Assembly: GCA_032622095.1 (NCBI GenBank)
Contig: CP136061.1
Span: 37,701,797-37,765,796 of the forward strand
DNA from: Siphonodentalium dalli
Lineage: Eukaryota; Mollusca; Scaphopoda; Gadilida; Siphonodentaliidae
DNA length: 64,000 bases
Direction: 5' to 3'
The stretch's first letter is position 1; every line of letters begins with the position of its first letter. Below are positions 16,818-47,246 of the stretch, piece after piece. The position numbers and the translations under genes are program-made. The notes below the pieces were generated by a model. The model worked only from the letters and a program-made list of their open reading frames with translations. It did not search any database and was not told where the DNA came from.

Positions 16818-16821
16818 TTAA

Positions 16822-17150
16822 CCCTTTACCCAACAGAAGGGCCCTGTGCCAATGCATTCTCTTCGCATATATAAGAGAATGCATTGGCTTAACACATTAA
16901 AAATTATAAAATTGTTAAAGAATGTAAGAAAGGGCAATGCATTCTCTTATATATGCGAGGCGACCTATGGTCGACTCGCATATATAAGAGAATGAATTGG
17001 CACAGGGCATAACTGTAACCATCACAATGTGGTCAAGGAGCCGGTTCCAATGATATCCATATTTGTATGGTTCTATTGAGACAGACCGAAGATATTTTAG
17101 GCTGTTGAAGCTTTATTTGGCCGGTTTTGGCCGTTTTGTTGGGTAAAGGG
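16822..17150 (-). mobile_element. Composite miniature element A (TTAA family), reverse orientation
   Basis: It is flanked by TTAA at 16818-16821 and 17151-17154. Terminal inverted repeats are CCCTTTACCCAACA and its complement, the pattern expected for piggyBac-type elements. Inside are two long palindromes built on CCAATGCATTCTCTTATATA, separated by an AT-rich spacer. Its left palindrome has lost its centre. The unique 150-bp arm ('ccggttccaatgatatccat') lies on the right, so this copy is reversed relative to copies B, E and F. It has no coding capacity, so movement would depend on a transposase supplied elsewhere. Confidence 0.92.
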
Positions 17151-17154
17151 TTAA

Positions 17155-18676
17155 GCGTGTGGATATGAGACATTGTCGCCATTCGCCATGTTATCGCCAG
17201 TTATTATGGCAATTTACGGACCGGGAGTCCAGTACTGGTTGGATGTTCTTGTCAAACTATCTTTGTCTGACTCACTGAGATGGATACTACTGTTGTGAAA
17301 CTAGTATACACAGTTTGATGTACCACGCTATCAAATTTCATCGAATAATGTTGGACTATAGAAGAACGTTGTCATCACACAAAGTTATTATGTGCTTTGC
17401 TGTTGTCTTATAGGTTTCAATCCCAATTAGCTGTTCGAGTTACTGATATATTGTCGTAATGTACGCATCCACATGTTAAAACTGTGTTTTCAAATGACTG
17501 GACAATTTCACACCTTACATGTTACCAAAATATATGCCATTAAGATGTTTTAATTTTACATGTACATAAATTTGAGTTTTAACTGTGATACATATACCTT
17601 TCTTCCTGTATGTCTTAAAAGGGCATACCCGATTCATATGTTAGAATGGTCACAATTAGTATTGCTCGTAACTGAAGGATACATGTTGTATTATCGTTAT
17701 TTATTTACAGCCATAGTTATACAGTGGTCAGTGAAAAGTGAACACATCACATAGTGTTATTTTGTATTCAATCCCACGAGGCAGATCATCTTCAAACTTC
17801 AAAGTTTCATAAGTATTGTCTGACACATTAAGCATTGAGGATTTAAGTTTCATCAAAACTATGATCGTAATAGAAGAACTAAGATGTATTTTTCAGTTAT
17901 GAATAATACCAATTTCGACCATTCTAAAACATGAATCGTAATGGCTATCGAGAAATCATATTGTCGCCACGGGCTAATTCTACGGTAAATTACGACATTA
18001 AAAGCAAAAAATTGGTGGTGACCTATGAAGAATACTATTCGCCTGAGTCGTCTGACCGTTATTAGTTACGGTCTTGATATTAATTAAACGGTGTTGAACA
18101 GTAAAAATTACAACGGTCCGACTGTTACTGGTTACAGCCTGCCAGTTACTTAAAAAGTTTATTACCGTGTTTAACGGTCCAAGGTGGACAGCGGTGTTTC
18201 GCGGTATGACACCGTTATACAGCGACGGGCATATTTCTAACAGTGTAGATAATACTGGTGTATCAGGATTCCTATTTATTGGAGGGAAATACTCGCGAAT
18301 GAGTATTTAGTATCGAACAGGTGAAATACATATTCATTATTTAAATATTTCAATATGTTCTGGGATGTCTTATACAGATAACGGGTTTTCTTCGGTTCAT
18401 TCAGAATAGACAAAGGCTGTGCAAAAGACAACTTTAGAAAAAAATAACCATATGCTACTCATTTCTTAACAACATCGGTCTGCCCGTAACGATTTCACAG
18501 AAACTCAGCAAGACCTATAGGTCAACATGCCATCAAATTAACAGGATCACTCAGGTGTGTTATCTTATCCATTAAAATGGTCTATCTCTTCCCAGAATGC
18601 TTATATAGATTTAGGGATATACATGTAGCACAATAGATATGAATCGAGAACACCTATGCGGAAAAGTTTCTATCAA
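17155..18676. other. No gene recognised
   Basis: Presumed intronic sequence. Around 18040-18225 there are many 'acggt/accgtt' words ('gaccgttattagttacggtc', 'accgttatacagcg') that suggest a decayed palindromic repeat, but no copy elsewhere in the window supports it. Confidence 0.45.
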
Positions 18677-18680
18677 TTAA

Positions 18681-19071
18681 CCCTTTACCCAACAAACCGG
18701 CCAAAACCGGCCAAATAAAGCTTCAACAGCCTAAAATATCTTCGGTCTGTCTCAATAGAACCCTACAAATATGGATATCATTGGAACCGGCTCCTTGGCC
18801 ACATTGTGATAGTTACAGTTAGCCCTGTGCCAATGCATTCTCTTATATATGCGAGTCGACCATAGGTCGCCTCGCATATATAAGAGAATGCATTGGCCTA
18901 AAAAAAATCTTTTTTTAACACTTTTTACCATTTTTTCTTACATTCTTTAACAATTTTATAATTTTTAATGTGTTAAGCCAATGCATTCTCTTATATATGC
19001 GAGGCGACCAATGGTCGACTCGCATATATAAGATAATGCATTGGCACAGGGCCCTTCTGTTGGGTAAAGGG
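18681..19071 (+). mobile_element. Composite miniature element B (TTAA family)
   Basis: TTAA flanks lie at 18677-18680 and 19072-19075, with CCCTTTACCCAACA termini. The order is unique left arm (18695-18822), palindrome 18830-18896, AT-rich spacer, palindrome 18978-19044, right terminus. The two palindromes face each other and are bounded by CCCTGTGCC-like and GGCACAGGG sequences, so the whole core is also an inverted repeat. It is nearly identical to copy E. Confidence 0.94.
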
Positions 19072-19075
19072 TTAA

Positions 19076-19739
19076 CATAAATATTATTTAGAATTTCTTA
19101 TTACTTCCGCGGGACAGTTTTATGGACTATCTTTAGAACAGAAATCCTTGCGAAAAGATCGAAGAATCCCAAAACGGTATCAAGAAGGACAAATAATTAT
19201 GTCTTGGTAGCAGCCTCATTGCTGCCTCAATCACGACAACTTGTATTTCAAATGTTCAATTGTAGATGTACCACGAACTTACGATCGATATAAGCCACTT
19301 TATTGTGCCCTTTTAGACAAATACTATACACAGTCTTCAGTTCTATCTGTATTTTAATTACAAAATAGCTATCTGTAGTCTTAAAATCGGGATTTATAAA
19401 AATTATGTTGTTTTAATTTTGGTCCGGAAGAGCTAGATCATCTTTTAATACAACAACAGATTTTCCGCATTTTATGAGATCCACCAGGATCAATCAATGT
19501 GTCATTGTGGTCTCACAGATGTCTTCTAGATATCGGCTCTGACATCGCGGTGTCATTGTGGTTTAACCGATGCATCGCAGTCCGGTCGGTGTCTTCGCGA
19601 TTCAAACAGTCACCGCGGTGTCCTGTGCGTCGCGAAGCACCCGATGCATCGTGATTAATTATCATCGATGATATGTGGATCGCTATTCTCACTGTCTTCG
19701 ATATGTTATTGCGGTCTGACCGATACTCTCTATATTTTA
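19076..19739. other. Degenerate minisatellite upstream of the signal-peptide exon
   Basis: From about 19495 to 19660 imperfect words 'ggtgtcattgtggtttaacc' and 'gatgcatcgcagtccggtcg' repeat with periods of about 30 bp. The rest is unremarkable AT-rich sequence. Confidence 0.5.
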
Positions 19740-19747
19740 GTTATAAG

Positions 19748-19823
19748 ATGCTGAAGCAACTATTTATATCGACAGTCTGCATATTGCTATATGGTGGACT
19801 CGTCCAGGGCGACATACCTGTAG
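19748..19823 (+). CDS. Signal-peptide exon of secreted C-type lectin
   Basis: A polypyrimidine-AG acceptor ('ctctctatattttag') ends at 19740, and the exon starts TTATAAG then ATG at 19748. The encoded start MLKQLFISTVCILLYGGLVQG is a textbook signal peptide: a basic residue, a hydrophobic core, and small residues before the cleavage point, followed by DIPV. The donor is CTGTAG|GTAGGT with the intron starting at 19824, leaving one base of a split codon (phase 1). This is exactly the phase needed by the lectin-domain exon at 39888. Alternative donors exist a few bases downstream (GTACAA) and at 19879. The join across a 20-kb intron is inference from phase and protein logic. Confidence 0.65.
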
Positions 19824-20745
19824 GTAGGTACAACACGAGCGATGCGAGTTCGCATAGCGAACCGAACCGACAGGTTATACCATTTCATCAGTCACAAACA
19901 ACAAACAGCTCAATCAAAGATCAGACATACCGCCACAAAAATATTTAATAACGCCACATCATACATGTACTTGAGCTCGGGAACTTGACAGCGTATATAG
20001 TGAAAGTTACTTACCGGGACCAAGTAAGTAGCTGCGTGTGACTTCAAACATATTTAACATACACTGAGAGAAAGAACATTATTTTATGATAATGTTTAAT
20101 TAATTTTCATAATGAAATCAACTTTCAAAGGAAAACAACTGTTAATATTTTAAATTTAATCAAGAATCATTTGTAGGGTAGTTATACGCTTGTTGCCTGT
20201 TATATGCATGTCTATTTTGTATATATTTTATTTACTGTTAACTTATCTTCTACTTTATGTTATTTGCAATTGCCTTGCAGTGAACTATATTATTTTATAT
20301 TACAGCAACTATAATCATGAGAAGCAAATTCAATTAATGAGTATTTAGTATAGAAATTGTTAATATACCATATGGTGCGTTGGGTAAAATTGGTTTCTAT
20401 GGTATACATGTATATGTAATACTTGCATAATTGGAGATCTTGCTTGAAAAACAAACTTGACAATTACTGATATAAATGGCCTTCAATATCCTTTAATTTT
20501 AGAACAGAAGAAAACTGTTGTAAAATGACCTTGAATTCAATTATATATATATACCTTATCTGTGGGAACACATATATAAACGTGTAGTTTATACGCCATA
20601 GAAACGTAAACATATAGATAAGGAGATACAATTTAAAATAATTATAGATTATATATAAATGGTGTGAATCTTTAATTAATGTGGCAATATAATACACGTA
20701 AACGCGAGACCCAATAAACGGAAGGATGTGGCACTTTTTTCCTCA
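19824..20745. other. Intron sequence, no gene
   Basis: Very AT-rich, with no recognised repeats or domains. Short open frames near 20464-20697 are low-complexity and lysine/tyrosine-rich, as expected by chance. Confidence 0.5.
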
Positions 20746-20747
20746 TA

Positions 20748-21210
20748 TGTGACCCGCCATATCAAATCCAGTCGTAAGTCGGGATTTTTTTTACCATGTG
20801 CCAATGCATTCTCTTATATATGCGAGTCGACCATAGGGTCGCCTCGCATATATAAGAGAATGCATTGGCCTAACAATGTTTTACAATTTTAATAATTTGT
20901 TCTTGTATTCTTTAACAATTTTATAATTTCACTCATACAGAGCCCCAGACAAACATGAGCAGACGACACTCTTCTATATGCTTCTATATATGTGTGGGGC
21001 TCCCTGCAGGGTAATGGATGTTTTTTTATTTTATGTCCTAAAAATTGTAAGAAAAAATTATTTAAGAAAAAAAAATAAAACATTGTTAGGCCAATGCATT
21101 CTCTTATATATGCGAGGCGACCTATGGTCGACTCGCATATATAAGAGAATGCATTGGCACAGGGTAAAAAAAATCCCGACTTACGACTGGATTTGATATG
21201 GCGGGTCACA
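20748..21210 (+). mobile_element. Composite miniature element C (TA family)
   Basis: Inverted termini of about 48 bp begin TGTGACCCGCCATATCAAAT and continue 'gtcgtaagtcgggatttttt'. They are flanked by TA at 20746-20747 and 21211-21212, as for Tc1/mariner-type elements. Inside is the same core as in the TTAA family: palindromes at 20810-20876 and 21092-21158 with an AT-rich spacer that shares 'attctttaacaattttataa'. The spacer also holds an extra segment bounded by 'gagcccca' and 'tggggctc'. It has no coding capacity. Confidence 0.93.
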
Positions 21211-21340
21211 TATTATTTTAACATTCTGACTGGTCCTGAGACTGCCTTTAAAGTGTATGTATATGGTGTTCTGTATGTTCGTTAGATGACTTTGGAGCTT
21301 CTTTGATGAATGGAGCTTCCTAATTTTTTGCGAAAATACT

Positions 21341-21372
21341 GTGCCAATGCATTCTCTTATATATGTGAGTCG
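21341..21372 (+). repeat. Isolated half-arm of the composite-element core
   Basis: CTGTGCCAATGCATTCTCTT followed by 'atatatgtgagt' matches the outer arm of the shared palindromic core. It stands alone, without either terminal repeat family. It sits between 'gaaaatac' and 'gtattttc', an 8-base inverted pair. Confidence 0.75.
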
Positions 21373-21404
21373 CACATATAGGGTATTTTCACATTTTCAA
21401 CCGC

Positions 21405-21945
21405 TCGAGTGGTACCACCGTGGGTGAGGGTGGGGATGGGGGTGTTTCTGGGGTATGGGGTAATTGGGGCGGGCCACCCACCTATGCCGTCAAATTGGCC
21501 GAAATCCTAACATTTCTCGAAAATGGTCCACACCAATTTCGACCCCCTCGGGTGAGGGGTGTGATGTTTCTATTGGGTTTTTGGGGCGGGCCAAAAACCC
21601 ATGCCGTAAAATTGACCGAAAGAGAGGGTGGGGGTTCTATGGTGTATTTTGGTCGGGCCACCCACTCCTGTCGTCAAATTAGCCTAAATCCTTACCGTTA
21701 TCGAAAATGGCCAATACATAGTTCACCCCTTGGTGGTACCCCCCGCTGAGGGGTGTTGGCGTTTCTATTGGGTATTTGGGGAAGGCCACCCACCAAGACA
21801 TCAAATTCTCCGAAATCCTTACCGTTTACGAAAATGTTCCATACCCCATATTCACCCCCTCCAGGTGGTACCCCGGTTGAGGTGTGGTGTTTTTAGTGGG
21901 TATTTAGGGCGGGTCACCACCCATGCCGTCAAACTGACCAAAGAT
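21405..21945 (+). repeat. About 130-bp GGGCGGGCCACCCA tandem array, five units
   Basis: 'gggcgggccacccacctatg' type words recur near 21467, 21583, 21651, 21778 and 21908. Each is followed by 'ccgtcaaattggccgaaatc' and then 'cgaaaatggtcca'. One spacing (68 bp) reflects a deletion. A single diverged unit is at 60895-61040. Partial palindromes 'ggtggtaccc' mark unit joins. Confidence 0.85.
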
Positions 21946-22189
21946 ATATATTTGTGAATAAGTAATATGGAATAAGTTCCAAAAGTCATGTTCGTCCATG
22001 ATATTAGATAATAACTAGAGGTCAGATTCCATGGAATCAGATATACTTCCATGGTATTCCATCCCATCCCATGTGAGTGTTATGCGTATATGTGTGTTCC
22101 TCTTCATGCGAATGCATATTGGTGCCTTACGATCCGATGGTGGACTTGCATTGACATTTCTAAATTTAATATATATTTTGGGACTTCTG

Positions 22190-22575
22190 TCTGTCTGTTT
22201 GTTTGTCTGTTAGCTATGGCCGGGAAAACTGCTGGACGGATTTTGACGAAATTTGATCAGTGTGGGTACTTTTGTCCAGGGAGTGTTTTGGACGGGTCGA
22301 ATCGTGACCCCCGACCTGTCCTTGGCCTTCAAAAAGGTCAATCGAAGGTCAAATCGGGTAAAACAGACGGATTTCCACGAAATTTGATACCTAGGGTTAC
22401 TTTTGTCCGGGGAGTCTTTTCGGCGGGTCAAGTCGTGACTCCGACCTGACATTGACCTTCGACATGATAAGTTCAATGTCAAATCGGGTAAAACGAACGG
22501 ATTTCGACGAAATTTGATACCTAGGAAAACTTTTGCCCGGGGAGTGTTTTGGACAGGTCAAATCGTGACACTAGG
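22190..22575 (-). repeat. AAGGTCAAGGTCAGGTC tandem array, reverse orientation
   Basis: The same family as 456-680 and 38280-38690, read on the minus strand. Units of about 130 bp carry 'ctaggtatcaaatttcgt' and 'gtccaaaacactccc'. The outer end at 22190-22235 matches the outer end of the 38-kb array (complement of 'ggccatagctaacagacaaa'), so both arrays share one defined boundary. That argues for a mobile unit rather than a local satellite. Confidence 0.88.
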
Positions 22576-22849
22576 TTACCTTTATAGTAGAGCGGACATA
22601 CCTATATAGTATATCGATGAGCATATTCGTGCATTTGCCTTGCTTCTTGAAAAGGCCGTTTGAATTTGCGTCATGAAGAGAGGGTTTGAATTTGAGTAAT
22701 ATATATCACCCGTTACAACGTTATACTCTACCAGGGTTAAACCGTCCAATCTAAATCATTAAAAAGTGTAATAATCTTGCGTTAAGATACTACTTATCAC
22801 ATCCACTGATCGAAAAGTTTTTATCTCAATATCTGATTTTCGGAGTAAT

Positions 22850-23445
22850 TTTCCCCATTTGATCTTCGGTGGAATTTGCCAAATCTGAACTCACCGACAC
22901 AAACACTCCCTTGAGCAGGTTGCGTTTATATTAGAGAGGTCAAATTTTGGAGGGATACCTACAGTATACCGGCTTAAGTACCACCGCATTAAACTCGCTC
23001 CTTTATTAGCCTATTTAGATTTGGGGCTAAAAATAGGTTAGTGATAGACTACTTCAGTATACATATTTATGTTATATAGCGTTTTTACGAGTAAACCGTT
23101 GGTTCTGAAATTTAGAAAATCGCACTGTAGATGCGCGTGAACACTACCTATCAGATGTACTCGTAAAAAAAATTTATCTTGATGTTTGAATCCCCCCCCC
23201 CCTTTGCAATTTCGTGAAATTTTCCAAAAGTCCCAACCCACCCCGACTCGCATTCTCCGTTGGACAGGTTACTTTTAAATTATAGCGATCAAACTTTTGG
23301 CACGTACATACAGTATGTCAACGTACCTGCTGCGACATTATATTGTTCTTTAATTAGCCGGTTTGGATTTGGCGGGAAAATTAGTGCAATATTTACGTAC
23401 CTCGTAACGCGGAAAGTGCTGGGAAAAAACATTTTTAACCGGTAT
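22850..23445 (+). repeat. Two diverged tandem units of about 344 bp
   Basis: 22850-23090 and 23195-23440 align by eye. Examples are 'ctcccttgagcaggttgcgt' with 'ctccgttggacaggttactt', and 'ttagcctatttagatttggg' with 'ttagccggtttggatttggc'. The interval also holds a C9 run at 23192. No gene is seen. Confidence 0.6.
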
Positions 23446-23570
23446 ATTCGGGTCAGGATTACTCGTCCAATTCGGAATATGCGATAAAAAATTTAGAGCT
23501 CTGCAATTATATAAAAAAAATAAATAAAAAATAAAACCTCGGTTTATTCATTCTGGTGTAAAATGTGTCT

Positions 23571-24090
23571 CTATTTATGTGCGGTAACTCCTCAGGGAAA
23601 GCACGGACACAAGTTTTGATGCCCGTGGGCAGTAGGGCATATCGAGGTGTGCATACGGTCCAATTTTCGATGCTCTGCTCCTTATAATTTCCGAGATAAT
23701 AAAATGACATTTTTTCATATAAAGGGAGATAACTCCGCGGGGAAACGCGGACAATATTTGTTATATGAAAAAAAGTTAGAACTCATTAGCCCCAACATAC
23801 GTACCAACTTTTAGTTTGCTACTCCTCATACTTTCAGATATTAGGGCTTCGCAAAATCGTGGAGTATAATAATAATAATAATGAAAAATAATCGAAAAAG
23901 GGCCATAACTCTGTCTAGAAACTTTGGACCGGTATGCGGATACCTTTATTTGTAGTAGACCTTAGATGCCTACATTCGCTATAGATTTCGCGTTCCTACT
24001 GCAATTAGTTTCTGAGTATTTCAAAATAAACGGAAAACGACCTCAGTACAAAAACAATATACTTCCTTGGTTACACCATGGAAGTATAAT
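23571..24090 (+). repeat. 520-bp duplicated block, copy 1
   Basis: Almost identical to 25298-25817. I counted about three mismatches, so they are about 99% identical. It contains 'aaagggagataactcc', a motif abundant in molluscan genomes, and an (AAT)n tract near 23870. It ends in a 13-bp hairpin, TATACTTCCTTGG and CCATGGAAGTATA, at 24059-24089. Confidence 0.95.
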
Positions 24091-24099
24091 AATAGGGAA

Positions 24100-25165
24100 C
24101 ATCACGAGCTGAAATAATTGCAGTTTAGGGGCGGAAAATATGAATTAGGATGGTTATATGTTGTCCTAACATGTGTGGGTTGATCTCAAATGTGTGAAAG
24201 TGTCCCCACCCCTGCCGCGAAATTGGGTGACGGGATTGGGAAATTGTCAACAGTGGCCCAAACTGCGAAGTTTGAGGGCCTGTAACTCCGTTATTTTCCA
24301 ATGGATTTTAAAATTGTTTTTAGTTTTGTAATCTCCTACTTACCTAGATTGTATGTTATAAATGTCATCTGATTCGGAGACGAATAGCATTCTGTTTATT
24401 GGAAAAAATATGGGGCCAAATTAAAACTTTGAGGGCCCAAATCTCCGCCTTTTTTAACGGATTTACGATCTGTTTTCAGTTTTGTGTTCAACGTGTATGG
24501 TAGATGCTATATGCCAAGTTTCATATGATTCGGAGACGAAATAAATTTTGGTATTGTTGACCACCCCTCCCGTGACCCACAACACTAAACCGACACTGGC
24601 AAAATTTGGCACACCGCGTGCTCTCTTCAGCCTGCACGCATTGGCGTATCAGATGACATTCAAAGTTCGACATCTTCGGAGGAGATGTGTTATCAAGCAC
24701 ATGGGCCCAGACTTGCATATTTTGAAGGCCCGCAACTCTGTCAGTTTTTAATGGTTTTCGAAATTCTTTCAGTTTCTAGATCGGCTGTTGCTGTGGATGT
24801 TATATTCCAAGTTTCATCTGATTCGGAGGCGAATAATATTCTGGCACCATAAATCACCCCTCCCCAGAACCACAATAATGAACAGACACTGGCAAAATTT
24901 GGCACACACCGAGCACTAGTTATTCTGGATACTTAGAAGTGTGTCACTATCTCCAATGTTTGTCCGTTTTAAAGGAGATACGGCGACAAGCCGATTGCCC
25001 CAAAAATATAGTTTTTGAGGGGCCACAACTCTGGTATTTCTACTCAGATTTCAAAAATCTTTCGTAATATATGATTAGCTTTACGCAGTGAAGCCATACA
25101 CGTAGATAGGTGAATTTCGTAACGAATTTTTTTTTTAATTTGGCAACCCCCCACCCCATTGTAAA
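24100..25165 (+). repeat. Four diverged units with GATTCGGAGACGAAT
   Basis: 'tttgagggcc(tg/ca)taactcc' and 'aagtttcatctgattcggag' words recur near 24265-24385, 24425-24545, 24720-24840 and 25015-25130. Later units also hold 'cactggcaaaatttggcaca' (24593 and 24888). Spacing is irregular (150-300 bp). There is no coding sequence. Confidence 0.7.
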
Positions 25166-25297
25166 AATATGAGATCGACCCTGTCCAGTTTTCGTTTTGG
25201 CACTGAACAGTCAATGAACAAGAGGACTGTGAAAATCAAATTCAGTTATCTGGAATTATACGAGAGAACAGCTGAGTACAATGAATTCGAGGTTTGC

Positions 25298-25817
25298 CTA
25301 TTTATGTGCGGTAACTCCTCAGGGAAAGCGCGGACACAAGTTTTGATGCCCGTGGGCAGTAGGGCATATCGAGGTGTGCATACGGTCCAATTTTCGATGC
25401 TCTGCTCCTTATAATTTCCGAGATAATAAAATGACATTTTTTCATATAAAGGGAGATAACTCCTCGGGGAAACGCGGACAATATTTGTTATATGAAAAAA
25501 AGTTAGAACTCATTAGCCCCAACATACGTACCAACTTTTAGTTTGCTACTCCTCATACTTTCAGATATTAGGGCTTCGCAAAATCGTGGAGTATAATAAT
25601 AATAATAATGAAAAATAATCGAAAAAGGGCCATAACTCTGTCTAGAAACTTTGGACCGGTATGCGGATACCTTTATTTGTAGTAGACCTTAGATGCCTAC
25701 ATTCGCTAGAGATTTCGCGTTCCTACTGCAATTAGTTTCTGAGTATTTCAAAATAAACGGAAAACGACCTCAGTACAAAAACAATATACTTCCTTGGTTA
25801 CACCATGGAAGTATAAT
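25298..25817 (+). repeat. 520-bp duplicated block, copy 2
   Basis: Direct copy of 23571-24090, offset 1727 bp, about 99% identical. The junctions share no flanking homology beyond the block. No clear target duplication or terminal inverted repeat was found. Confidence 0.95.
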
Positions 25818-27047
25818 TAACCGCTATACAACAAACCGTGAATTCGTCGTGATTTATATCAGAGAGCAGTGAGCACAGGTTATTCACCTGATTAGGAGAT
25901 TAAATAGTGACAACCGGGCGCGTGACCCGACAATTCATTGACAATTAGCCATAATAAACAGACAGACCACGCCTCCTATCCTTGCAATTGAACAATTGTG
26001 GCCCACAGGTAATGCAATCGACCATGTCGTCCCCGCGGTCGAGTAAAACTTAGTTTTACGACTAAAGCCCACTTAAAACAAGAAAACCATAGTCAGAAAT
26101 GGTAACGCCACCAAGATTATAGTATTACATATAAATAGAAATTATAAAAAATACATAAAATATTTTGATAACAATTGCGTTTAAACAAGTAATCCTTCAA
26201 ATTATTACTAACAAAGCAAGTAAATGACTGTGGGGTCACTCAACAGATTATAAAGACTTGGACTTAGTATACTGTAAATACTGGGACTGTATATTTTTAA
26301 ATTTTAGTCTAAAATTTAAATGAAATAATTAAAAGATAAAATTTAGCAAGTAGTAAAAGTTAATTTTATCATTTAATTTATTTTTTTGGTTAAATAAAGG
26401 AATAATTTAAATGTAAAATTTGGTTTTAAAAAAAATGATTGACCGTGGCTCTTCCAATAATTACGCGACTGACCTGGTCAATTGTTCTTAAGAAGTTGTT
26501 TTGAGAATTACTATGGAGGGACATAGTTATGGCTGTGGCTTCGCGAGTAATTGACTTGGTGACGTGATGTTAACAATCTGAACTCCAGTAAACCAAGGAC
26601 GCTCCATACCAAATATAAGGTAAATAAATAATTCTTTATAAGTTGTTTTAATATTTACTATGGAGGGAAAGAATTGTGGTGCTGGCTTCGTAACTATTTG
26701 ACCCCATTGTAACAAATATAAATATTAGTCACTCAGGCAATAGATATGTATCTATTCTGTATATTAAGTTATTGGGTCTTACGTGTCTTGAGATGTCTAA
26801 ATATGTTTTGATGGACAGATCGCGCAAACGCAAGGGACCCCGCCAATCTTATTTGTTGTGCTTCCAATTGTTGACTTATTAAATATGCACATATACTTAA
26901 GAAACAGTCGCGTGCGAAGCGCGCTCCCGTAGGTCGGTTTTTGGATGCCAGTTAATGAAAATATCATTGAAATAATCGGTTTCCCCCCAATAAACATCCA
27001 TATATTCAATATACATGTTTTTGGAGCAGAATTAGGTAGACCATATT
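25818..27047. repeat. AT-rich interval with two diverged units of about 146 bp
   Basis: 'aagttgttttgagaattactatggaggga' type sequence at 26491 recurs near 26639, and both are followed by 'ggctgtggcttcg'-like words. The remainder is AT-rich with no recognised gene. Confidence 0.55.
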
Positions 27048-27475
27048 GAACGACATAATTCTGCTGTGGTTAAGTGGTCAATTACTTTGGACATTACTGT
27101 ATGTAGATGGAGTTATCATTAGACCTCACATCCTTATATGGGATACAGTAATGCCCGAAGTAATTGACCACTTAACCACAGCAGAATTATGGGTAATTTT
27201 TCAGGATTTAAAATCCGGAAAAATTACCCACAATCTGCTGTGCTTAAGTGGTCAATTACTTTGGACATTACTGTATGTGGATGGAGTTATCATTAGACCT
27301 CACATCCTTATATGGGCTACAGTAATGCCTAAAGTAATTGACCAATTAACCACAGCAGAATTAAGGGTAATTTTTCAGGATTTAAAATCTTGAAAAATTA
27401 CCCATAATTCTGCTGTGGTTAAGTGATCAATTACTTTGGACATTACTGTATGTAGATGGAGTTAAACCTCACATC
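27048..27475. repeat. 174-bp tandem units made of nested palindromes
   Basis: 'ctgctgtggttaagtggtca' begins at 27061, 27235 (variant) and 27410. Inside each unit, the arm 'ggtcaattactttggacatt' pairs with 'agtaattgaccacttaacca' about 90 bp later. A second palindrome 'ggtaatttttcaggattta' with 'ggaaaaattaccc' follows. The array is thus alternating hairpins. A single fragment with the same words lies at 41605-41725. Confidence 0.9.
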
Positions 27476-27669
27476 AGTTTGTTGGGGATTTGGACCTTGA
27501 CTTGGGACCTTTTTTTTTTAACGCAACAAATGCGAGTACACCTTATACACAAATTTCTGATGTAGCCAGAGTTTTTATTGGATAATATTAGTTTGAAGCC
27601 TGCTTACATTTCAATATGTTGTCAGTTTTGTATTCTCTGCAGCAGCTAGAACTCGGCGCGTTGAAGCAA

Positions 27670-38060: not shown

Positions 38061-38279
38061 AACAAGTAGTTTAAACTAGAGGTCTAGCTAAACTGGAGAT
38101 GCCGATTCGGACCTCGGTAGTAGCTTCATAAAAAGGTCGGGGAAACTCTTTGTCTCTTACCATGCATTTAGGGACTTTGTGAATGATATACCAGGATTGC
38201 GTAACTTGTTTCGTTCGGGTTGAGATTTCGTCAGAGGTCCAGCTTTATTTTGCCAGTTCAACCAAACTATATATATACT

Positions 38280-38690
38280 AGCTGGTGAATTGACCATTTT
38301 GAAGGTCAAGGTCAGGTCGAGGTCACGATTTGACCCGTCAAAAACACTCCAAGGACAAAAGTACCCGTGGGTATCAAATTTCGTCGAAATCCGTCAGTTT
38401 TATCCGATTTGACCTTGAATTGACCTTTTTGAAGGTCAGATCGGGGTAACGATTTGACCCGTCCAAAAGACAAAAGTATCTGTAGGTATCAAATTTCGTC
38501 GAAATCCGTCCCGTTTTACCCGATTTGACCTTGAATTGACCTTTTTGAAGGTCAAGGTCAGGTCGGAGTCACGATTTGACCCGTCCAAAACACTCCCTGG
38601 AGAAAAGTAACCCTAGGTATCAAATTTCGTCAAAATCCGTCCGGCAGTTTTCCCGGCCATAGCTAACAGACAAACAACAAACAAACAGAC
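38280..38690 (+). repeat. AAGGTCAAGGTCAGGTC tandem array, forward orientation, three units
   Basis: Units begin at 38302, 38432 and 38548. The array ends in 'ttttcccggccatagctaac' and a CAAACAAACAGACAG run, the same outer end as the inverted array at 22190. The minus-strand frame across this end is repeat-derived. Confidence 0.9.
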
Positions 38691-38854
38691 AGAAGTCCCA
38701 AAATATATAGTAGATACATATATATAAATATACACAAATATAAATAAAATAGCCTTCATGTTGACGGAAGTAAATACTGATTCGTGCGACTCATGTGCGT
38801 GACGTGGTGCCAAACCAATACGCCAATCGCGATCACAGTTTACCCGTGTGATTA

Positions 38855-38928
38855 AGGATTTCCTTAATCACGCCTCTCTTTAAAATGTTTTGTTCGGTAA
38901 TCGGGCTACACACGATTGGTCGTGTGTG
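38855..38928. repeat. Two short perfect hairpins
   Basis: GTGATTAAGGA-tt-TCCTTAATCAC at 38855-38878 has 11-base arms and a two-base loop. CACACGA-ttgg-TCGTGTG lies at about 38911-38928. Function is unknown. Confidence 0.7.
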
Positions 38929-39244
38929 TGAAATTGAGGAAATCTACAGTTTTCTGAAATGCTCAAGGGTGAGAACTCCACACCCACATATAAATTGATG
39001 TACACACCACCCAGAATCACAATCCGTAGAGAAAAAAACTTTAACATAGAATTTCTACTTCACACTTGTCACTGTACAGCACATGTTTAAAAAAAAAAAG
39101 CTAAATACATTGCGAAGTAGTTGTAGTTGTTTTCCCGGTGAGCTCTGGTCAGTCACCATGAAATTTGTTGATTCATCTTAATCTCGATGGGCTTAGAGGG
39201 GGCTGAATTGGTCATTATAGCATGGTTTCGTTCAAAAAGATACC

Positions 39245-39460
39245 CATGATATATCTCAAACGTGCAAAAAGACACACAGGTTATCTCACGCGTGCAAAAA
39301 GGCTTCCATGTTCTCTCACACGTGCAAAAAGACACCCAGGTTATTTCACACGTGCAAAAAGACACCCATGTTCTCTCACACGTGCAAAAAGACACCCATG
39401 TTCTCTCACACGTGCAAAAAGACACTCAGGTTCTCTCACACGTGCAAACATACCCACAGG
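39245..39460 (+). repeat. 30-bp minisatellite with CACGTG E-boxes, seven units
   Basis: Units of the type CACGTGCAAAAAGACACCCA followed by 'tgttctctca' repeat with a 30-bp period. Five carry the exact E-box CACGTG. Because the period is a multiple of three, both strands show long open frames with ten-residue repeats; I read these as by-products. It lies about 430 bp upstream of the lectin-domain exon at 39888. Confidence 0.93.
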
Positions 39461-39599
39461 ACCTCGTTCGTCCGGGACTGTTAAACTCAACGTGGTGGAA
39501 TATCAATTCAATACCCCCTGACATTTCACTCTAAAATGACAAACATATAATTATTATGCATAATAATTAACAATGACTATTTTAAAACGATTTTTTAAA

Positions 39600-39705
39600 A
39601 TGAGATTGTGATATGCTGGGTGACTTTGTGCACATTTTGTGAGATCCTGGTGGCTGTTTGCTCGTTTAGCAGATCGTGGGTGTCTTTTAGCACGAAACCT
39701 TGCGA
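39600..39705 (-). repeat. Three degenerate inverted units of the 30-bp minisatellite
   Basis: 'gatcgtgggtgtcttttagc' and 'gatcctggtggctgtttgct' resemble the complement of the 39245-39460 unit. The pair of arrays could form an imperfect cruciform of about 100 bp arms. Confidence 0.6.
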
Positions 39706-39887
39706 CATTAACCTATTTTTAAGCCTTAATGGGTCCCCCCAGTGTTGAGTGATTTACTTACCACACACCCTTTAGATACTGTAGTATCACTTTCTGGTGG
39801 TTGGTCTTCTGTTGTTGTTTTCAATCACAAAACGAATTGGATACGTACCATTATAGTATGATTATACTATTGTGTTCTGTTTTTCAG

Positions 39888-40064
39888 CCGCAAATTGCAT
39901 TGGGAACCACAGAGTTTGGCTAGATACTACCTTAATCTGTGTTTATGCCAGCATAGACAGAAGGAGCCACGCTAGTGCTGTCCGGCGATGTAGACGGATA
40001 GATGGACAACTCCTTAGAATCACCAGTACGACCATGTTGCGTGACCTTAGAGGGAAACTGATGC
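39888..40064 (+). CDS. C-type lectin domain, N-terminal half exon
   Basis: The acceptor 'ttctgtttttcag' ends at 39887 and the donor GTAAGT starts at 40065. The exon is 177 bp with phase 1 at both ends. It encodes 'ANCIGNHRVWLD', 'CVYA', 'SHASAVRRCRRIDGQLLRI' and 'MLRDLRGKLM'. These match the first half of a long-form C-type lectin domain: a Cys pair in the N-terminal hairpin, the first helix with Ala and Cys, then G-x-L-x-x-I. This exon supplies cysteines 1-3 of six. The product would be a secreted lectin of about 155 residues when joined to 19748-19823 and 42301-42515. Such proteins usually act in recognition of glycans or microbes, but this is not shown here. Confidence 0.85.
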
Positions 40065-40119
40065 GTAAGTGCCCCTATTTTCTGAGACACATGTGATGCT
40101 CACATAATACATATGATCA

Positions 40120-40262
40120 GCATTGTCACCAGCATCTTCCCAATGGACATCACCGTCATCATTATCAAAATCAAATGCAATGCCGGCCGCCATTGCCATC
40201 GTCATCATCATAATTGCCACCACAATGTCCATCATCATCATCATCATCACCATCATAGTAAA
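40120..40262. repeat. Imperfect (CAT)n/(ATC)n tract
   Basis: ATC/CAT trinucleotides become almost pure at 40227-40256. The tract sits in the intron directly after the lectin exon donor. Open frames rich in His, Ile or Met here are microsatellite artefacts. Confidence 0.9.
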
Positions 40263-40399
40263 GTCACTTGCACCGCCAACACAGCTAACGAAGTCCCCAA
40301 GACTCCGTCACGTTCTGCAGCGGGAAAGCGCGAACGGCGACCACATAGACCGCCTGTAGTGAACAAACGGCCATATGTAAGAACTGGCTGCCAATAATA

Positions 40400-40853
40400 T
40401 GTGACCCCGCCATATCAAATTCAAGTCGTAAGTCGGGATTTTTTTTACCCTGTGCCATGCATTCTCTTATATGTGCGAGTCGACCATAGGTCGCCTCGCA
40501 TATATAAGAGAATGCATTGGCCTAACAATTTTTTACAATTTTAATAATTTGTTCTTGTATTCTTTAACAATTTTTTAATTTCACCCATATAGAGCCCCAG
40601 ACAAACATGAGCAGACGACACTCTTCTATATATGTGTGGGGCCCCCTGCAGGGTAATGTATGTTTTTTATTTTATGTCCTAAAAATTGTAAGAAACATTT
40701 ATTTAAAAAAAATGATAAAATATTGTTAGGCCAATGCATTCTCTTATATATGCGAGGCGACCTATGAGTCGACGACTCGCATATATAAGAGAATGCATTG
40801 GCACAGGGTAAAAAAATCCCGACTTACGACTGGATTTGATATGGCGGGTCACA
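40400..40853 (+). mobile_element. Composite miniature element D (TA family)
   Basis: TA flanks lie at 40398-40399 and 40854-40855. The ends are TGTGACC(C)CGCCATATC and its complement. The layout is the same as element C: palindrome, spacer with 'gagccccagacaaacatgag', palindrome. It sits in the lectin gene's last intron. Small indels in the palindrome centres ('gagtcgacgactcg') distinguish it from copy C. Confidence 0.93.
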
Positions 40854-41016
40854 TATAACCTCATCCATATCATATCATAGACAACATCCTGTGAGAAATT
40901 TCCTCGGGGGAAATGAAATAAACAGCTATACAATCCTGCAGCGTTTTGGAAGTTTCGACACGAAGCCACCAAACAAACTTCTAAACTACCTAATGTAACT
41001 AGGAGGATGTTTTTAA

Positions 41017-41408
41017 CCCTTTACCCAACAAACCGGCCAAAACCGGCCAAATAAAGCTTCAACAGCCTAAAATATCTTCGGTCTGTCTCAATAGAACCAT
41101 ACAAATATGGATATCATTGGAACCGGCTCCTTGACCACATTGTGATAGTTACAGTTATGCCCTGTGCCAATGCATTCTCTTATATATGCGAGTCGACCAG
41201 AGGTCGCCTCGCATATATAAGAGAATGCATTGGCCTAAAAAACATCTTTTTTTAACACTTTTTACCATTTTTTCTTACATTCTTTAACAATTTTATAATT
41301 TTTAATGTGTTAAGCCAATGCATTCTCTTATATATGCGAGGCGACCTATGGTCGACTCGCATATATAAGAGAATGCATTGGCACAGGGCCCTTCTGTTGG
41401 GTAAAGGG
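41017..41408 (+). mobile_element. Composite miniature element E (TTAA family)
   Basis: TTAA flanks lie at 41013-41016 and 41409-41412, with CCCTTTACCCAACA ends. It is nearly identical to copy B over its whole length, including the unique left arm 'ccggccaaataaagcttcaa'. It lies only 160 bp from element D. Confidence 0.94.
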
Positions 41409-41604
41409 TTAATGCCGCGCCTCCAACCTTTCGCGCACCAAACTGGACTGTCACTTTGACATCCATCCATGTAGAATGTAACCATGAACCAAACTGGGTT
41501 TCGGCCTATACATGGCTTGTAACTACAAGGGCGATTACCAGCCCGAAAACATTATTTTGATTATTGGAATTAACTGATCATAACGACCGCAGCGAACCTC
41601 ACCC

Positions 41605-41725
41605 ATCCATGTACAGTAATGCCCTAAATAATCGACTCATTAACCACAGCAGAATTATGGGTAACTTTTCAGGATTAAGTCGGAAATACGGCCTGTTGCC
41701 ATTCATCGGAAAGCATTACTGTAAC
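41605..41725. repeat. Fragment of the 27-kb nested palindrome unit
   Basis: 'cagtaatgcc', 'ttaaccacagcagaattatg' and 'ggtaacttttcagg' occur in the order seen at 27141-27215. Only one arm-palindrome segment is present. Confidence 0.75.
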
Positions 41726-42009
41726 TACAATTTTGAGCACAATCAATAAAGCATTGCCCAAAGCGCAAATTTATTTCACGCAGCTCAACTTTTCCAAGGA
41801 ACTTCGGCCAGACCACTGTGTAGAGACTGTTACACCGGAAATCATTCTACTGCTGGTTTGTGATGGTTCAGTGATGATTTTTTTTATTGGATAAATTTTA
41901 CAACACATTGGTTGAAATTGTACTCATTTTTTGATTCTCCTACCAATAATGAGTGGGGAATATGTGATTTTTGTCTGAATAGCTGTCAGTTACATTTTCA
42001 AACCTTAGA

Positions 42010-42110
42010 TAGGAAATTTCCAACAGCTGGAAATTTTGAGGTACCATGCAGTTGGAAAGTCCCAAAACCAACCACAACGGAGACCTTCTGATCACGTCCC
42101 TGTAGTTGTG
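42010..42110. repeat. GGAAATTTCCAAC repeat fragment
   Basis: 'ggaaatttccaacagctgga' and 'acggagaccttctgatcacg' match the family at 34060-34400. GGAAATTTCC fits the loose consensus for NF-kB/Rel sites; in this copy it lies about 280 bp upstream of the last lectin exon. Confidence 0.6.
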
Positions 42111-42300
42111 CCCCTATCTGACATGTTCAACGTGCGGATTTTGGAAGTTAGCTGTTTATGATAAACAAAAATGATGTCTAGGTCACCTATATTATGTAAA
42201 TTTTTGCCTGGACTAATAGACATTGAACATCGCGTGTCCTGCTCCGGATGCTGCGCAGGTCGCCATACAGTTCAGTTCATTCTTTGTTTCTCGTTTGCAG

Positions 42301-42515
42301 CCACTCAGTTCTGGATAGACGGGAGTGACGCTGTTCAGGAGGGTCACTGGGTTCTCTCTGATGGGAGTGACATGTTGGAGGAATGGGGCCCCAGAATGCC
42401 GACGGGAGGGACCGCCTATAACTGTGCTTACATCTACGGCCGGGATAACGAGTTCTACAGCGAGCCTTGTGGATCTTCCGTCCGTTACATCTGCGAACTC
42501 CATACAATCACTTAG
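42301..42515 (+). CDS. C-type lectin domain, C-terminal half exon with stop
   Basis: The acceptor 'tctttgtttctcgtttgcag' ends at 42300. The exon enters in phase 1, matching the preceding exon, and ends at TAG 42513-42515. It encodes 'FWIDGSDAVQEGHWVLSDGS', 'EEWGPRMPTGG', 'NCAYIYG', 'EPCGSSVRYICE': the WIGL-like motif, the G-x-W-x-x-SDG strand, and cysteines 4-6 of a long-form domain. The EPN or QPD tripeptide and the WND motif that bind calcium and sugar are not present (PTGG and FYS stand at those places). Calcium-dependent sugar binding of the classical type is therefore unlikely. No clear AATAAA follows. Confidence 0.88.
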
Positions 42516-42703
42516 TGTAAACACATTTGCATTTCCAATTTCAAACAAATGATATAATATACAAATGACATACATTCAAAATAGAAGTGATAATATATGG
42601 AAACGGAGATCAGACAACAATCCCTAGGGCTTAAGTCAAGTCTGCCCCAGGTATGCAATATGGTAGTGTATATAGAAAACATGTACACCAAGAACCGGTA
42701 CCA

Positions 42704-43102
42704 GTACCAGTCAAAAGAAGTGGTATATTAAGCGCGCTATTTTCGCGCCCATTATTGCAATAATAATATAATTGGAAAAGGTTATAAGGGCGCCGCTTGC
42801 GATATTATTGCAATATTTTGCGCTTAATATCGCAATATTTGGCGCTTAATATTGCGATATCGCGCGCTTAAAATTGTGATAGTTAAAGCAAAGTATTGCT
42901 TCGTCTCTATTGTTTATTGCATAAATATAGAGACAATGGTTAGATTTGTATATAATTATAGTTGTAAATGGTCAATATCGCAATAATAAGCGCGACAAAT
43001 TTTTTTGGTATTGCGCTATAATCGCGCCTTTTTCGAAATTAAGCACGCTCAATATATCGCAAAAAGGCGCGCCTCGATATACCACTTCTTCTGACTCGTA
43101 CC
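42704..43102. mobile_element. About 400-bp terminal inverted repeat element with AATATTGCG/GCGC motifs
   Basis: The left end 'gtaccagtcaaaagaagtgg' pairs with the right end complement (43083-43102 reads 'cacttcttctgactcgtacc'). The arms continue for about 45 bp into 'tatatt..gcgcgc'. The interior is filled with 'cgcaatatt', 'ggcgcttaatat' and 'gcgcgctt' words in both orientations. It lies 190 bp after the lectin stop codon. No target duplication is certain. Confidence 0.8.
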
Positions 43103-43104
43103 TT

Positions 43105-43918
43105 AGCTGAGACACGCAACAAGGCAGTTCTGGAAGTTAACATCCAAAACAAGGCTGGGCGATTAACACTAAGTGCATCGATGCTAACATCCAAAAACAA
43201 GACTGGAGCGATTAACACTAAATGCACCGATGGAGTTTCTGGTGAAAATGAAATAACTGACATGTGGATGCTCACTTTAAAAGCACACATGTGTAATCGG
43301 TTAATACAACAGACGGAAAGCACCTGTAGAACCGAGTCCGTTCATAAGCCTATACAATGACATTCAGATATATAGCGGACGATGACGTGAGGCAAGCTAT
43401 TCAGAATATAGTGTCGGGTAAAGCGTGTGGTTCAGATGGTGTAACATGAGATCATTTGAAATATGTCGGTGATACTCTCTGTATATATTTAAGCGTTCTT
43501 CTCAACTCGATTTACGTGCACTGGCATCTACCAAGTATGATGCTGGAAGTAATCATTGTTTCGTTGCTTAAAGCAAGTCTGATGATGTTGGCAGAAAAGA
43601 AAACTACCGCCCGATATCAACGGCGAACATAATTGCCAGAGTGGTTGAAATAATTATGTTCAGTAAATTTGAGGAACTTCTGACGGTTTCAAGAAAAACA
43701 TTCGACTGACTCATGTATATTCACACTTATATAAGAAACCATATACGGTACTATCGTTCACTCCATTTTATCTCAACGCAAGCAAGGCTTTCGATCGGGT
43801 CAATCACGATCGGGTCAATCACGACACTCTAATTCCACCCTCGAGAGTAGGGGGTATCAATGATGACTAATCGTTTGCTGCAAAACTGTTTTAGAGAGCA
43901 GACATTTAGGTTGCTGGT
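43105..43918 (+). pseudogene. Non-LTR reverse transcriptase pseudogene, 5' part
   Basis: Broken frames read 'DGVSGENEITDMW' (about 43228), 'GKACGSDGV' (about 43423), 'NYRPIS' with 'FEELL' (about 43600-43680), and 'ASKAFDRVNHD' (about 43785). These are the linker and RT motifs 1-3 in correct order. In-frame stops and shifts are present. A 56-bp direct duplication ('taacatccaaaa..aagactgg') at 43138-43245 adds to the damage. The gene continues after two insertions at 46722-46789 and 47247-47560. The clade is not determined. Confidence 0.85.
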
Positions 43919-44690
43919 CTCACAGCACAGGAGCTTGGAATTTGGTCAAAATCCCTCTTTTATTGGCAGAACCACCACCCGGGACCATAGGTCACGGAAG
44001 GAACGAAACACGAATTTGTTGCCACCCATTTTGAACTCAACTGTATTCCTACAAAAAATATATTTTCACTAAAAACTTTTGGTACCTCTTACACCTTAGA
44101 TGCCAATCTACAACATTCCATAGGTATATTTTTCCAGTTCTTCGAAAACCTCACTTTATTTCGGTAATGTATTGTAAATTCACCAACGAACACAAATCTG
44201 CGACACCTCCATCATCCGTTGTAGAATCTGAATGACAAATGGCACAAAACCATTTTTCCGGAATAACAAAGTCGGAACGAAATAAAATCGAAACCTAATT
44301 TAAAGCCCGCGAAATTCAAAAATATTTGAAAGTGCGTGCGGTTTTCGAACTTAGGCGCCAGAAAACTTAAATCAGTTTATGTTTGCGTCATACTATGCTC
44401 GTTTTTGAAGATCTAATCCTGATGTTTTGTGCATTTTCCTGAAAATTTCTGTATTTTTCTGTGTCTGCTGTTATCATCTCATGAAAATGACGACTACCCA
44501 AGAAGATATTCTTCATTTGACTGAATGGTAATTTGTACAAATATTTCATATATAATTTATTTCTATTTATGGCACGACCACGTGGTATTGTTTTTTTCTT
44601 CTTGTTTTATGTTCGTTATGTACCGGTAGGCCTATATGTACTACTTGACTTTGTAATGCTACTGGATGCAATTATTGGTCATAAGGGGAC

Positions 44691-44797
<107 letters not shown>

Positions 44798-45146
44798 AAC
44801 TAGTTTATAAATTTGTGTTAGTGATAAACTCGCTAACATAAATTTTATGTAATGAGCAACTATAAGTATTGTTAACTGCACCGGTACCAGGATCTATAAA
44901 TAGTATACGTCACTCCGACTCACTCGTGACTCGCGTGTCGTAACGAATCAGCACCAAAACTCTTAAAGAATGGCTTTATGCATATGATTATATAGCCTGT
45001 GCTCATGAATTGGAAATTCAATTTTTAAATTCAAGACAGCTAGCCACCATCGGCATTGTTTTTCTCAAAATCAAAAATACCAAAACAATATTAAAAACAT
45101 TACTTAATGTAACTTTCGCTGATGGGGTCATTGTCACAAGGCTCCG

Positions 45147-45267
45147 CGATCCGATCACATTCGTAGCCAGGTTTTTTAATCGATCACAAATGTAGCCAGC
45201 TTTTCTATGGCGATCACATTCGTAGCCAGCTTTTCTATGGCGATCACATTCGTAGCCAGCTTTTCAT
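45147..45267 (+). repeat. 30-bp minisatellite, four units
   Basis: 'gcgatcacattcgtagccag' followed by 'cttttctatg' repeats with a 30-bp period. The first two units are diverged. On the minus strand it gives ten-residue repeats within a chance frame. Confidence 0.9.
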
Positions 45268-45289
45268 ATTCAGGCGAGCCCCAATGAAT

Positions 45290-45405
45290 AGTGCTGGGCG
45301 ATATGACGATATATCGGGTATATCCGGTTTTAATTTTGATATCGTCAATAATATCGTCTAAAATAAAAATATCGTAATACCGTCCCAAGTTATAATATTC
45401 TCCAT
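45290..45405. repeat. Segment rich in ATATCG words with GTGCTGGGCGATAT start
   Basis: 'gtgctgggcgatatgacgat' and repeated 'atatcg' and 'cgatat' words resemble the ends of some hAT-type miniature elements in animals. The comparison is from general knowledge and there is no second copy here, so the assignment is weak. Confidence 0.35.
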
Positions 45406-45445
45406 CATATGGTCCCAACAAACAGGGAAGTTAGAGCAAGTATAA

Positions 45446-45915
45446 ATGTATAATAGTCCCAAACTTCCCGGAAATACGCGGTCGAAAAAGTTAAAAAAAA
45501 CATCGGAGCACGTGCTTGTCAAGTTGGATATGCTTCGTCGGAAACATCAAAGCGCTAGCATTAGTTGGCGACGTTGTGAGATGATTGGTATGTCGCGCGT
45601 ATGCGACTGGCACAATGACCTCCTTTCAAGTTGGTGCAGCTTGCTCTATCAACCGTAACCGGTTGCTTGGAGGCGGATTACGATGTCAGATTTTTATTGA
45701 CCAAACTAGCTGATCGTGTCAATGTGTGCAAATTGCGAGTAAAATTATTTTGTGGACATGTGCCGTACGGATCATGGCATCACTATCACTTCAACGAACG
45801 TCAAATTCACAAACTAATTGAACATGTCTATATTTATTTTCCTCGGCTAAAAAATGCTGACGCAAATTCATTTCGCGTCGGCTTTTGCCTCGACACTGCC
45901 CATTGTCGATGCTAA
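45446..45915 (+). CDS. Two overlapping unrecognised frames inside the 2.8-kb element
   Basis: Frames 45446-45658 (70 aa) and 45631-45915 (94 aa) are in different registers. The first has a Lys/Arg-rich start and a Trp/Cys-containing end. The second has 'GHVPYGSWHHYHFNERQIHK', with several His and Cys residues. I recognise no transposase catalytic motif. They may be remnants of one gene broken by a frameshift, or chance. Confidence 0.2.
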
Positions 45916-46721
45916 TTCCCAGGGCTGCCGTATACTATGTGCATTGAAGTCTCACGGTGCTACCAACTACCAATTACCACTAATAAATAGTCTCACAAAT
46001 GACCAATTCCTCATGAATAAATAAAATGGAAATTTGAAACCGAATGTGGTCCTTAATGTGTGGTGTTGAGCGCTATTGTCGAAGGGATATAACTGTAAAC
46101 AATTATGCGAAAATGCACGTGGGCCTTGTTATATGATTATATCCCTTTATTTCAAAGTTATTGTTTTCTCTGTCGGCAAACTGTCAGCGGCCATGTTTTT
46201 ATGCAAATGAGCCCAAAATGATTCGTTCCCATCTAGACGCCAATGTTATCATCCATCAAAAAGTTCATGATGATCAGTGCATCGGTACGGTCATGTAATA
46301 AACATGTAATCAGCAGCTATGTTCGAAATTATAAACGGTACTTTCATGCTATCCGTCTCCGGATCATAGTTTTAAAGTTTCCGCATATTTCGGTACCATT
46401 TCCGCTACTCAGATTCTACAACGGATGATGGAGGTGTCGCAGATTTGTGTTCGTTGGTGAATTTACAATACATTACCGAAATAAAGTGAGGTTTTCGAAG
46501 AACTGGAAAAATATACCTATGGAATGTTGTAGATTGGCATCTAAGGTGTAAGAGGTACCACAAGTTTTTAGTGAAAATATATTTTTTGTAGGAATACAGT
46601 TGAGTTCAAAATGGGTGGCAACAAATTCGTGTTTCGTTCCTTCCGTGACCTATGGTCCCGGGTGGTGGTTCTGCCAATAAAAGAGGGATTTTGACCAAAT
46701 TCCAAGCTCCTGTGCTCACAG

Positions 46722-46789
46722 TATCTCATCATGTTTTGTTTTGACACGTGGTGTGATGCAAGAAAGTATTATCATCCCTCTTTATTTAA
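46722..46789 (+). pseudogene. Reverse transcriptase pseudogene, middle fragment
   Basis: This short piece between the two insertions reads 'DARKYYHPSLFNVY' across the TTAA insertion point, corresponding to the RT segment G-x-L-S-P-x-L-F-N-x-Y. The codons for Phe-Asn contain the TTAA where element F inserted. Confidence 0.75.
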
Positions 46790-47242
46790 CCCTTTACCCA
46801 ACAAAACGGCCAAAAACGCCCAAATAAAGCTTCAACAGCCTAAAATATCTTCGGTCTGTCGCAATAACACAAAATGGATATCATTGGAACCGGTTCATTG
46901 CCCACATTGTGATGGTTACAGTTATGCCCTGTGCCAATGCATTCTCTTATATATGTGAGTCGACCATAGGTCGCCTCGCATATATAAGAGAATGCATTGG
47001 CCTAAAAAAATTCTTTTTTTTTAACACTTTTTACCATTTTTTCTTTCATTCTTTAACAATTTTATAATTTTTTCTTACATTTTTTAACAATTTTTATAAT
47101 ATTTTTCTACATTCTTTGACAATTTTATCATTTTTAATATGTGTTAAGCCAATGCATTTTCTTATATATGCGAGGCGACCTATGGTCGACTCGCATATAT
47201 AAGAGAATGCATTGGCACAGGGCCGTTCTGTTGGGTAAAGGG
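46790..47242 (+). mobile_element. Composite miniature element F (TTAA family), inserted in the RT pseudogene
   Basis: TTAA flanks lie at 46786-46789 and 47243-47246, with CCCTTTACCCAACA ends. The left arm and both palindromes are as in B and E. The spacer is longer because the 'ttcttacattctttaacaat' type word is repeated three times (47039-47130). The host frame (Leu-Phe-Asn-Val-Tyr) is restored when the element and one TTAA are removed, which directly supports the TTAA target site. Confidence 0.95.
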
Positions 47243-47246
47243 TTAA

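Follow-up and report, generated by a model that had tools for sequence, protein, structure and literature searches.

Galileo, a member of the P superfamily in Drosophila, is among the closest described cases of DNA transposons that are rich in inverted repeats and exchange segments between copies: according to the available part of its description, 12 of 170 copies are chimeric, and the long inverted repeats have been proposed to attract recombination and conversion, yielding new subfamilies (PMC3573991). A comparable situation is encountered in the scaphopod Siphonodentalium dalli, where a stretch of 64,000 nucleotides (GenBank assembly GCA_032622095.1, contig CP136061.1, positions 37,701,797 to 37,765,796 of the forward strand; hereafter, the window) contains six miniature transposons, termed A to F, that carry a common palindromic core between different outer ends. 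Like Galileo, these are inverted-repeat rich DNA transposons whose segments are probably exchanged between copies; unlike Galileo, for which the available text has subfamilies of one element exchanging, the partners here differ in their ends and target duplications and have nothing in common beyond the palindrome and a portion of the spacer. We favour, with moderate confidence, the reading that the core is an interior module common to several non-coding miniature transposon families, and that these are recombining mosaics in which exchange takes place across terminal families. That the core is now not a transposon of its own is the best explanation of the data presented below.

Other systems share single traits with the present one. 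Two hairpins constitute the repeated unit of the mobile double-hairpin elements of mitochondria, which differ from the elements described here in being mitochondrial, and no solo mobility was seen in S. dalli. Bivalves have non-autonomous, modular miniature elements (pearl family, DTC84) with satellite-like internal repeats, for which a network with satellites has been proposed, and in DTC84 a palindrome close to the repeat junction is conserved (PMC5139131). The tandem palindrome arrays of one of our families (G1, see below) resemble these modular elements, although the part of that work available describes no palindrome pair common to families with different ends. In our best reading, what is new with respect to Galileo is the exchange across terminal families with different ends and targets, which was not found described in the open-licence literature, searched with few word choices; in an exact-string search of such literature, only GGCGGGTCACA out of six end or arm strings occurred, in five papers unrelated by title. 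Searches for miniature elements that nest or swap their ends led to Galileo and to mosaic elements of bacteria.

The shared palindromic core and its terminal families

The core is composed of CCCTGTGCC, a 67-base palindrome, an AT-rich spacer, the inverted palindrome and GGCACAGGG, and this layout is common to the two families first seen in the window, F1 (elements A, B, E and F) and F2 (C and D). The palindrome has a predicted fold of -50.9 kcal/mol (RNA parameters), and in the 35-base spacer part that is common to the typical F1 and F2 forms, 33 of 35 bases are equal. The six elements with a common core, which the original prediction had derived from the letters of the window, are real. Their arm motif has 24 matches in the window when at most 3 mismatches are allowed, with 0.05 expected from shuffled sequence, and the partly common AT spacer was also rightly predicted. 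So were the ends: A, B, E and F start with TTAA-CCCTTTACCCAACA and finish with its complement and TTAA (4/4), and C and D have other ends, of the GTGACCCGCCATATC type. As for the two facing palindromes claimed for both families, the common core stands, with the reservation that in element A one palindrome, the left one in the orientation of the window, lacks its loop.

The search was extended to the whole assembly (2.23 Gb in 9 contigs, window included), in which the palindrome's outer edge of 27 letters has 140,369 exact matches (70,349 + 70,020) and the same letters reversed have none; viral contigs, scanned for exact occurrences of the arm and of the F2 end, gave 0 matches each. Instead of the two families initially proposed, at least four outer families surround the core: F1 (TTAA), F2, F3 (TTAA) and G1 (TTAA), F3 and G1 being the additional outer termini that had been suggested as worth looking for. 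F3 starts with TTAACCCTTTGAGTGCCAGG and G1 with TTAACCCTTTCATGACGGGAGCT, and the ends number 91,612 for F1, 18,051 for F2, 8,008 for F3 and 15,092 for G1, the last figure including satellite-like arrays of the G1 end itself. With element sizes of about 400 bp (F1) and about 457 bp (F2), the elements have the traits of miniature inverted-repeat transposable elements, i.e., they are short and non-coding, with inverted ends, a target duplication and a very high copy number. The high local activity deduced earlier from the density of copies is not borne out, as the window contains 8 exact 27-mers against 4.0 expected from the genome mean (Poisson P(>=8) 0.053), a density that is not unusual.

How consistently the core sits within these families was evaluated on the first 100 arms listed of the 140,369, which all come from the initial 6 Mb of a single contig and lie partly within tandem duplications. 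A recognisable family outer sequence accompanies 95 of them. For 57 arms, an exact F1, F2 or F3 end could be assigned by coordinates (3 of them via the opposite-side end), and the other 43, some of them mutated or truncated, were read in sequence and distributed as 21 F3, 7 F1, 5 F2, 5 G1 and 5 without family sequence. Among these last five, L052 and L116 (near copies of each other) and L123 retain around 10 bases resembling the F2 arm; L111 and L113 are copies of one locus with no recognised family end beside the arm. Two regions, C1:735739-779407 and C1:831194-920825, have arm matches every ~14.55 kb and 11.175 kb, and are large tandem duplications. Two others, C1:3257437-3273397 and C1:4921202-4923980, contain dense arrays of the G1 end motif, often spaced by close to a multiple of 37 bases, where a transposon end seems to have turned into a satellite.

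The hairpin consensus is identical over 70 positions in F1L, F1R, F2 and F3 (type S). In F1 (30 copies), the hairpins diverge from the consensus by 0.3-1.0%, against 2.2-2.3% for the outer ends, and in F2 (17 copies) the hairpin values are somewhat lower than those of the outer ends (1.6-1.7% against 2.2-2.8%). A second type, T-like, with its loop near TTTCCCATAGGGAG, was found among 62 distinct standard-length palindromes at five loci (L002, L012, L018, L019 and L039), all of them G1 elements or remnants. Types S and T differ in two stem pairs, each changed on both sides, so the palindrome has been kept through the change. Furthermore, some G1 elements (L018, L019) carry tandem palindromes with a unit of 97 bases, and from these few G1 loci we infer G1 to be the family in which the core has been present longest.

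Hybrids between families and a proposed exchange at the palindrome

Throughout the first survey, with few exceptions, outer end and spacer types are concordant, and F3 spacers resemble those of F2. A few copies look as if assembled from two kinds of element, an indication that ends have been traded by recombination at the palindrome. In L086, a core that has an F1 spacer continues into an entire F2 arm (45 bases), beyond which the sequence is of F1 outer type and ends in TGTTGGGTAAAGGGTTAA. A pattern joining an F1-type spacer end, the palindrome and the start of an F2 arm has 1,152 matches in the genome, 100 of which were listed and 20 of those read; five of the 20 have an F1 spacer, and two of them, L154 and L158, are strong hybrids, with 17 F2-arm letters (5 of which the search pattern itself required) followed by an F1 end with TTAA. 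In both, the presumed switch back lies at the letters CT, common to the two arms, and the F1/F2 junction is identical at the two loci while their right flanks differ, so the hybrid itself has probably moved. It is on L086, L154 and L158, all read in sequence, that exchange between families at the palindromes, put forward in the original prediction as its second choice, gains support. Mixed junctions of other kinds are known from patterns: 243 matches combine an F2-type spacer with an F1 right end, and 130 an F1 left end with an F2-type spacer. A possible F1/F3 mosaic appears in the region L007:526-580, in which an F3 outer end and a palindrome precede the F1-like spacer letters TTTTTTTTAGG.

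Several of the facts around these hybrids weigh against exchange as the explanation. L086 was the single clear F1/F2 hybrid of the first survey, beside one weak mixed call in the F1 copy L051, and it could also have arisen by a nested insertion followed by a deletion between palindromes. Of the 20 pattern matches read, 15 have F2 spacers and represent an F2 subfamily (13 with F2 arm; L147 and L152 break off), for which reason the idea that all 1,152 matches are hybrids was rejected, and the three other matches with F1 spacer (L161, L162 and L163) are weak, resting on A-rich stretches of 9-12 letters. Both sets of mixed junctions (243 and 130) are known by pattern alone and may in part represent an ancestral form of F1; when 100 of the former were compared with 48 of the latter, a single two-sided exchange was found, at C1:35.68 Mb, where F1 edges surround a 358-base core, near the F2 core length (by coordinates only), so most mixed junctions look one-sided. 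In addition, the low divergence of the hairpins may reflect constraint, and exchange between palindromes does not account for how a family came by the module in the first place.

Nonetheless, recombination at the palindrome can be outlined as a mechanism. Long palindromes can extrude, stall replication forks and be cut. The module would probably have originated in G1, with its TTAA and piggyBac-like ends, the home of the older variants and of the tandem palindrome arrays; the young type S now resides in F1, F2, F3 and some G1 elements, each family having been amplified via its own outer ends, and the first gain of the module by each family, like the direction of its spread, would belong to this presumed history. 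Being long and near-perfect, the palindromes would offer identical stretches in unrelated elements, on which broken or stalled DNA might switch templates. A repair tract starting in the palindrome could then copy the outer end or a piece of the spacer from the partner and return via short homology, and the outcome would be hybrids and, occasionally, a core placed between new ends.

A bolder version, which we regard as tentative, is that of a selfish palindromic module without transposase ends that recruits transposon ends across superfamilies via palindrome-provoked repair. If this were true, several transposases would have acted on one interior in succession, and it is in this way that its ~140,000 exact arm edges would have been reached. 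The gain of new ends, and hence of new transposases, by non-autonomous elements is seldom documented at the sequence level. The present genome combines several terminal families round an identical palindrome with apparent hybrids and with candidate mixed junctions in the hundreds, which makes the question of end gain testable by breakpoint mapping and excision assays.

Other explanations for the common core

The original prediction had given the lead to a composite origin, in which an independent mobile foldback core transposed into different miniature hosts (piggyBac-like and mariner-like), each of which then multiplied. The sharp border at CCCTGTGCC common to all families agrees with it, as do the TA that flanks the core on both sides in F2 and on a single core side in F3, and the duplicated locus (L111, L113) in which a core arm lacks a recognised family end. 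However, F1 and G1 cores have no target duplication around them, and no solo core with target duplication was present among the 100 listed arms, with L111/L113 read on one side only; 95 of those arms lie within F1, F2, F3 or G1 outer sequence and three of the five remaining ones keep the F2-like bases mentioned above. The empty hosts that this origin had led to look for were sought in the whole genome with exact patterns for F1 and F2 (no mismatches, so diverged empty copies are missed): core-less F2 had 0 matches, and the three core-less F1 matches all contain core edge or loop letters and are for that reason read as deletions. The 35 adjacent F1 end pairs found in the listed 100 places enclose elements of between 233 and 470, with a single longer one of 2406, the expected size of an empty F1 being about 170, and the element of 233 (L129) has a single palindrome. 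Finally, each of seven complete F3 elements carries one palindrome with part of the spacer, which is at odds with the insertion of an intact foldback element, and the F2 duplications are not strictly TA (see below). The composite origin is thereby weakened to an unlikely one.

Functional constraint, i.e., an old palindrome held identical by the needs of a transposase or a host factor without recent exchange, agrees with hairpins that have diverged less than outer ends and with S/T stem pairs that differ on both sides with pairing kept; it is nevertheless quite improbable, because single copies show unpaired one-sided changes, G1 copies with diverged palindromes persist and the hybrids require exchange. 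Common descent from one palindrome-bearing ancestor with divergence of the outer ends only, to which the TTAACCCTT start of all three TTAA families and the stretch of about 33-35 bases from TTAACCCTTT to the palindrome border in F3 and both G1 ends would point, is the least probable, as no outer-end similarity is seen beyond TTAACCCTT and yet the palindromes are identical, the F2 end and target duplication differ, and hybrids exist. The same differences, in the outer ends beyond their first letters and in the F2 target, speak against a single family whose termini are edge variants, the outcome that the original prediction had named as fatal to a composite.

Target sites, superfamily placement and the elements of the window

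A TA target had been assigned to C and D, and it does not hold for F2 in general. Of nine paired F2 copies, seven have an exact 4-base duplication (ATAT in 4, ATTT in 2, AAAT in 1), L039 and L079 being the two without exact match; as three of the seven are ATTT or AAAT, without TA, TA was rejected as the general target. The copies fit a 2-base target just as well (TA, TT or AA, with A before and T after it), but not a strict TA, and the TA duplication characteristic of Tc1/mariner is thus not what F2 displays. No coding F2 element was encountered, with no transposase search made for F2, and the long F2 pair L090 has no frame of more than 106 aa. Other observations concern F2 sequences as well. 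Two F2-ended repeats of about 1.4-1.8 kb, L080:1501-2910 (C1:4495975) and L083 (C1:4549552), have GC-rich inverted repeats flanked by half palindromes, which in L080 enclose a 142-aa frame with a Pfam Bcl-2 match (E 9e-11), and in L126 an F2 element has entered another palindrome arm and duplicated ATAT. The F2 spacer, as in window elements C and D, contains a second inverted-repeat module of small size, GAGCCCCA..TGGGGCTC, and a related one, AACCCACAGGGAGCC..GGGCTCTCTATGGGTT, stands in L088 and L121 in place of, or abutting, the F2 ends.

The other families have a different profile. Like non-autonomous piggyBac elements, F1 has a TTAA duplication and inverted ends starting with CCC (in 4/4 window copies); copies of F3 and of G1 flanked by TTAA on either side were found, and the outer ends of F1, F3 and G1 all start with TTAACCCTT. 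In the genome, 116 candidates for a piggyBac-type transposase (DDE_Tnp_1_7) were scored, many with open frames, and several coding copies have ends of a similar, TTAAC..CTTT-like style (19/30 against G1 for L141, 20/30 against F3 for L091). The ~1 kb on the 5' side of 35 of these 116 matches revealed neither a palindrome nor a coding copy with the end of F1, G1 or F3. It is likely that a piggyBac-type transposase mobilises F1, F3 and G1. The long F1 copy L089 (2406 bp; C1:6269580-6272080), considered as a candidate autonomous element, has a nested insertion of ~2 kb and no long frame; this insert lies in the F1 spacer, is flanked by TTAA and ends in AGGAATTAGTC / AGGATTTATTC.

In the window, the four F1 elements, all with TTAA at both ends, are A (16818..17154, minus strand; core 16842-17007), B (18677..19075, plus; core 18823-19051), E (41013..41412, plus; core 41160-41388) and F (46786..47246, plus; core 46927-47222). 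Copies of B in the genome are 98-100% identical (40 copies scored), and the spacer of F is enlarged by additional AT-rich repeats. The F2 elements are C (20745..21213, plus; core 20794-21164), with GTGACCCGCC ends, the duplicated target ATAT and CCATGTGCC as its left core edge, and D (40397..40856, plus; core 40448-40808), with ATAT on both sides and one additional C at its left end. Core lengths are 166 in A, 229 in B and E, 296 in F, 361 in D and 371 in C. A half palindrome at 21303..21384 (plus strand; arm edge 21339, right limit approximate), formerly described as standing alone at 21341, retains a degraded G1-type right outer end (21303-21338), whose alignment score to G1 was reached in 0 of 2000 shuffles, and it was accordingly ruled out as a solo core.

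The window also contains repeats of other kinds. A LINE-type element is represented by a 1271-aa open frame (8178-11993) that encodes an endonuclease domain and a reverse transcriptase domain. A direct repeat of 300 bases (23571-23870 and 25298-25597) has 99% identity, with 1727 bases between its copies. Beside element F, positions 43924-46716 hold a probable young DNA element with terminal inverted repeats of 308 bases, 100% complementary as listed and separated by 2177 bases.

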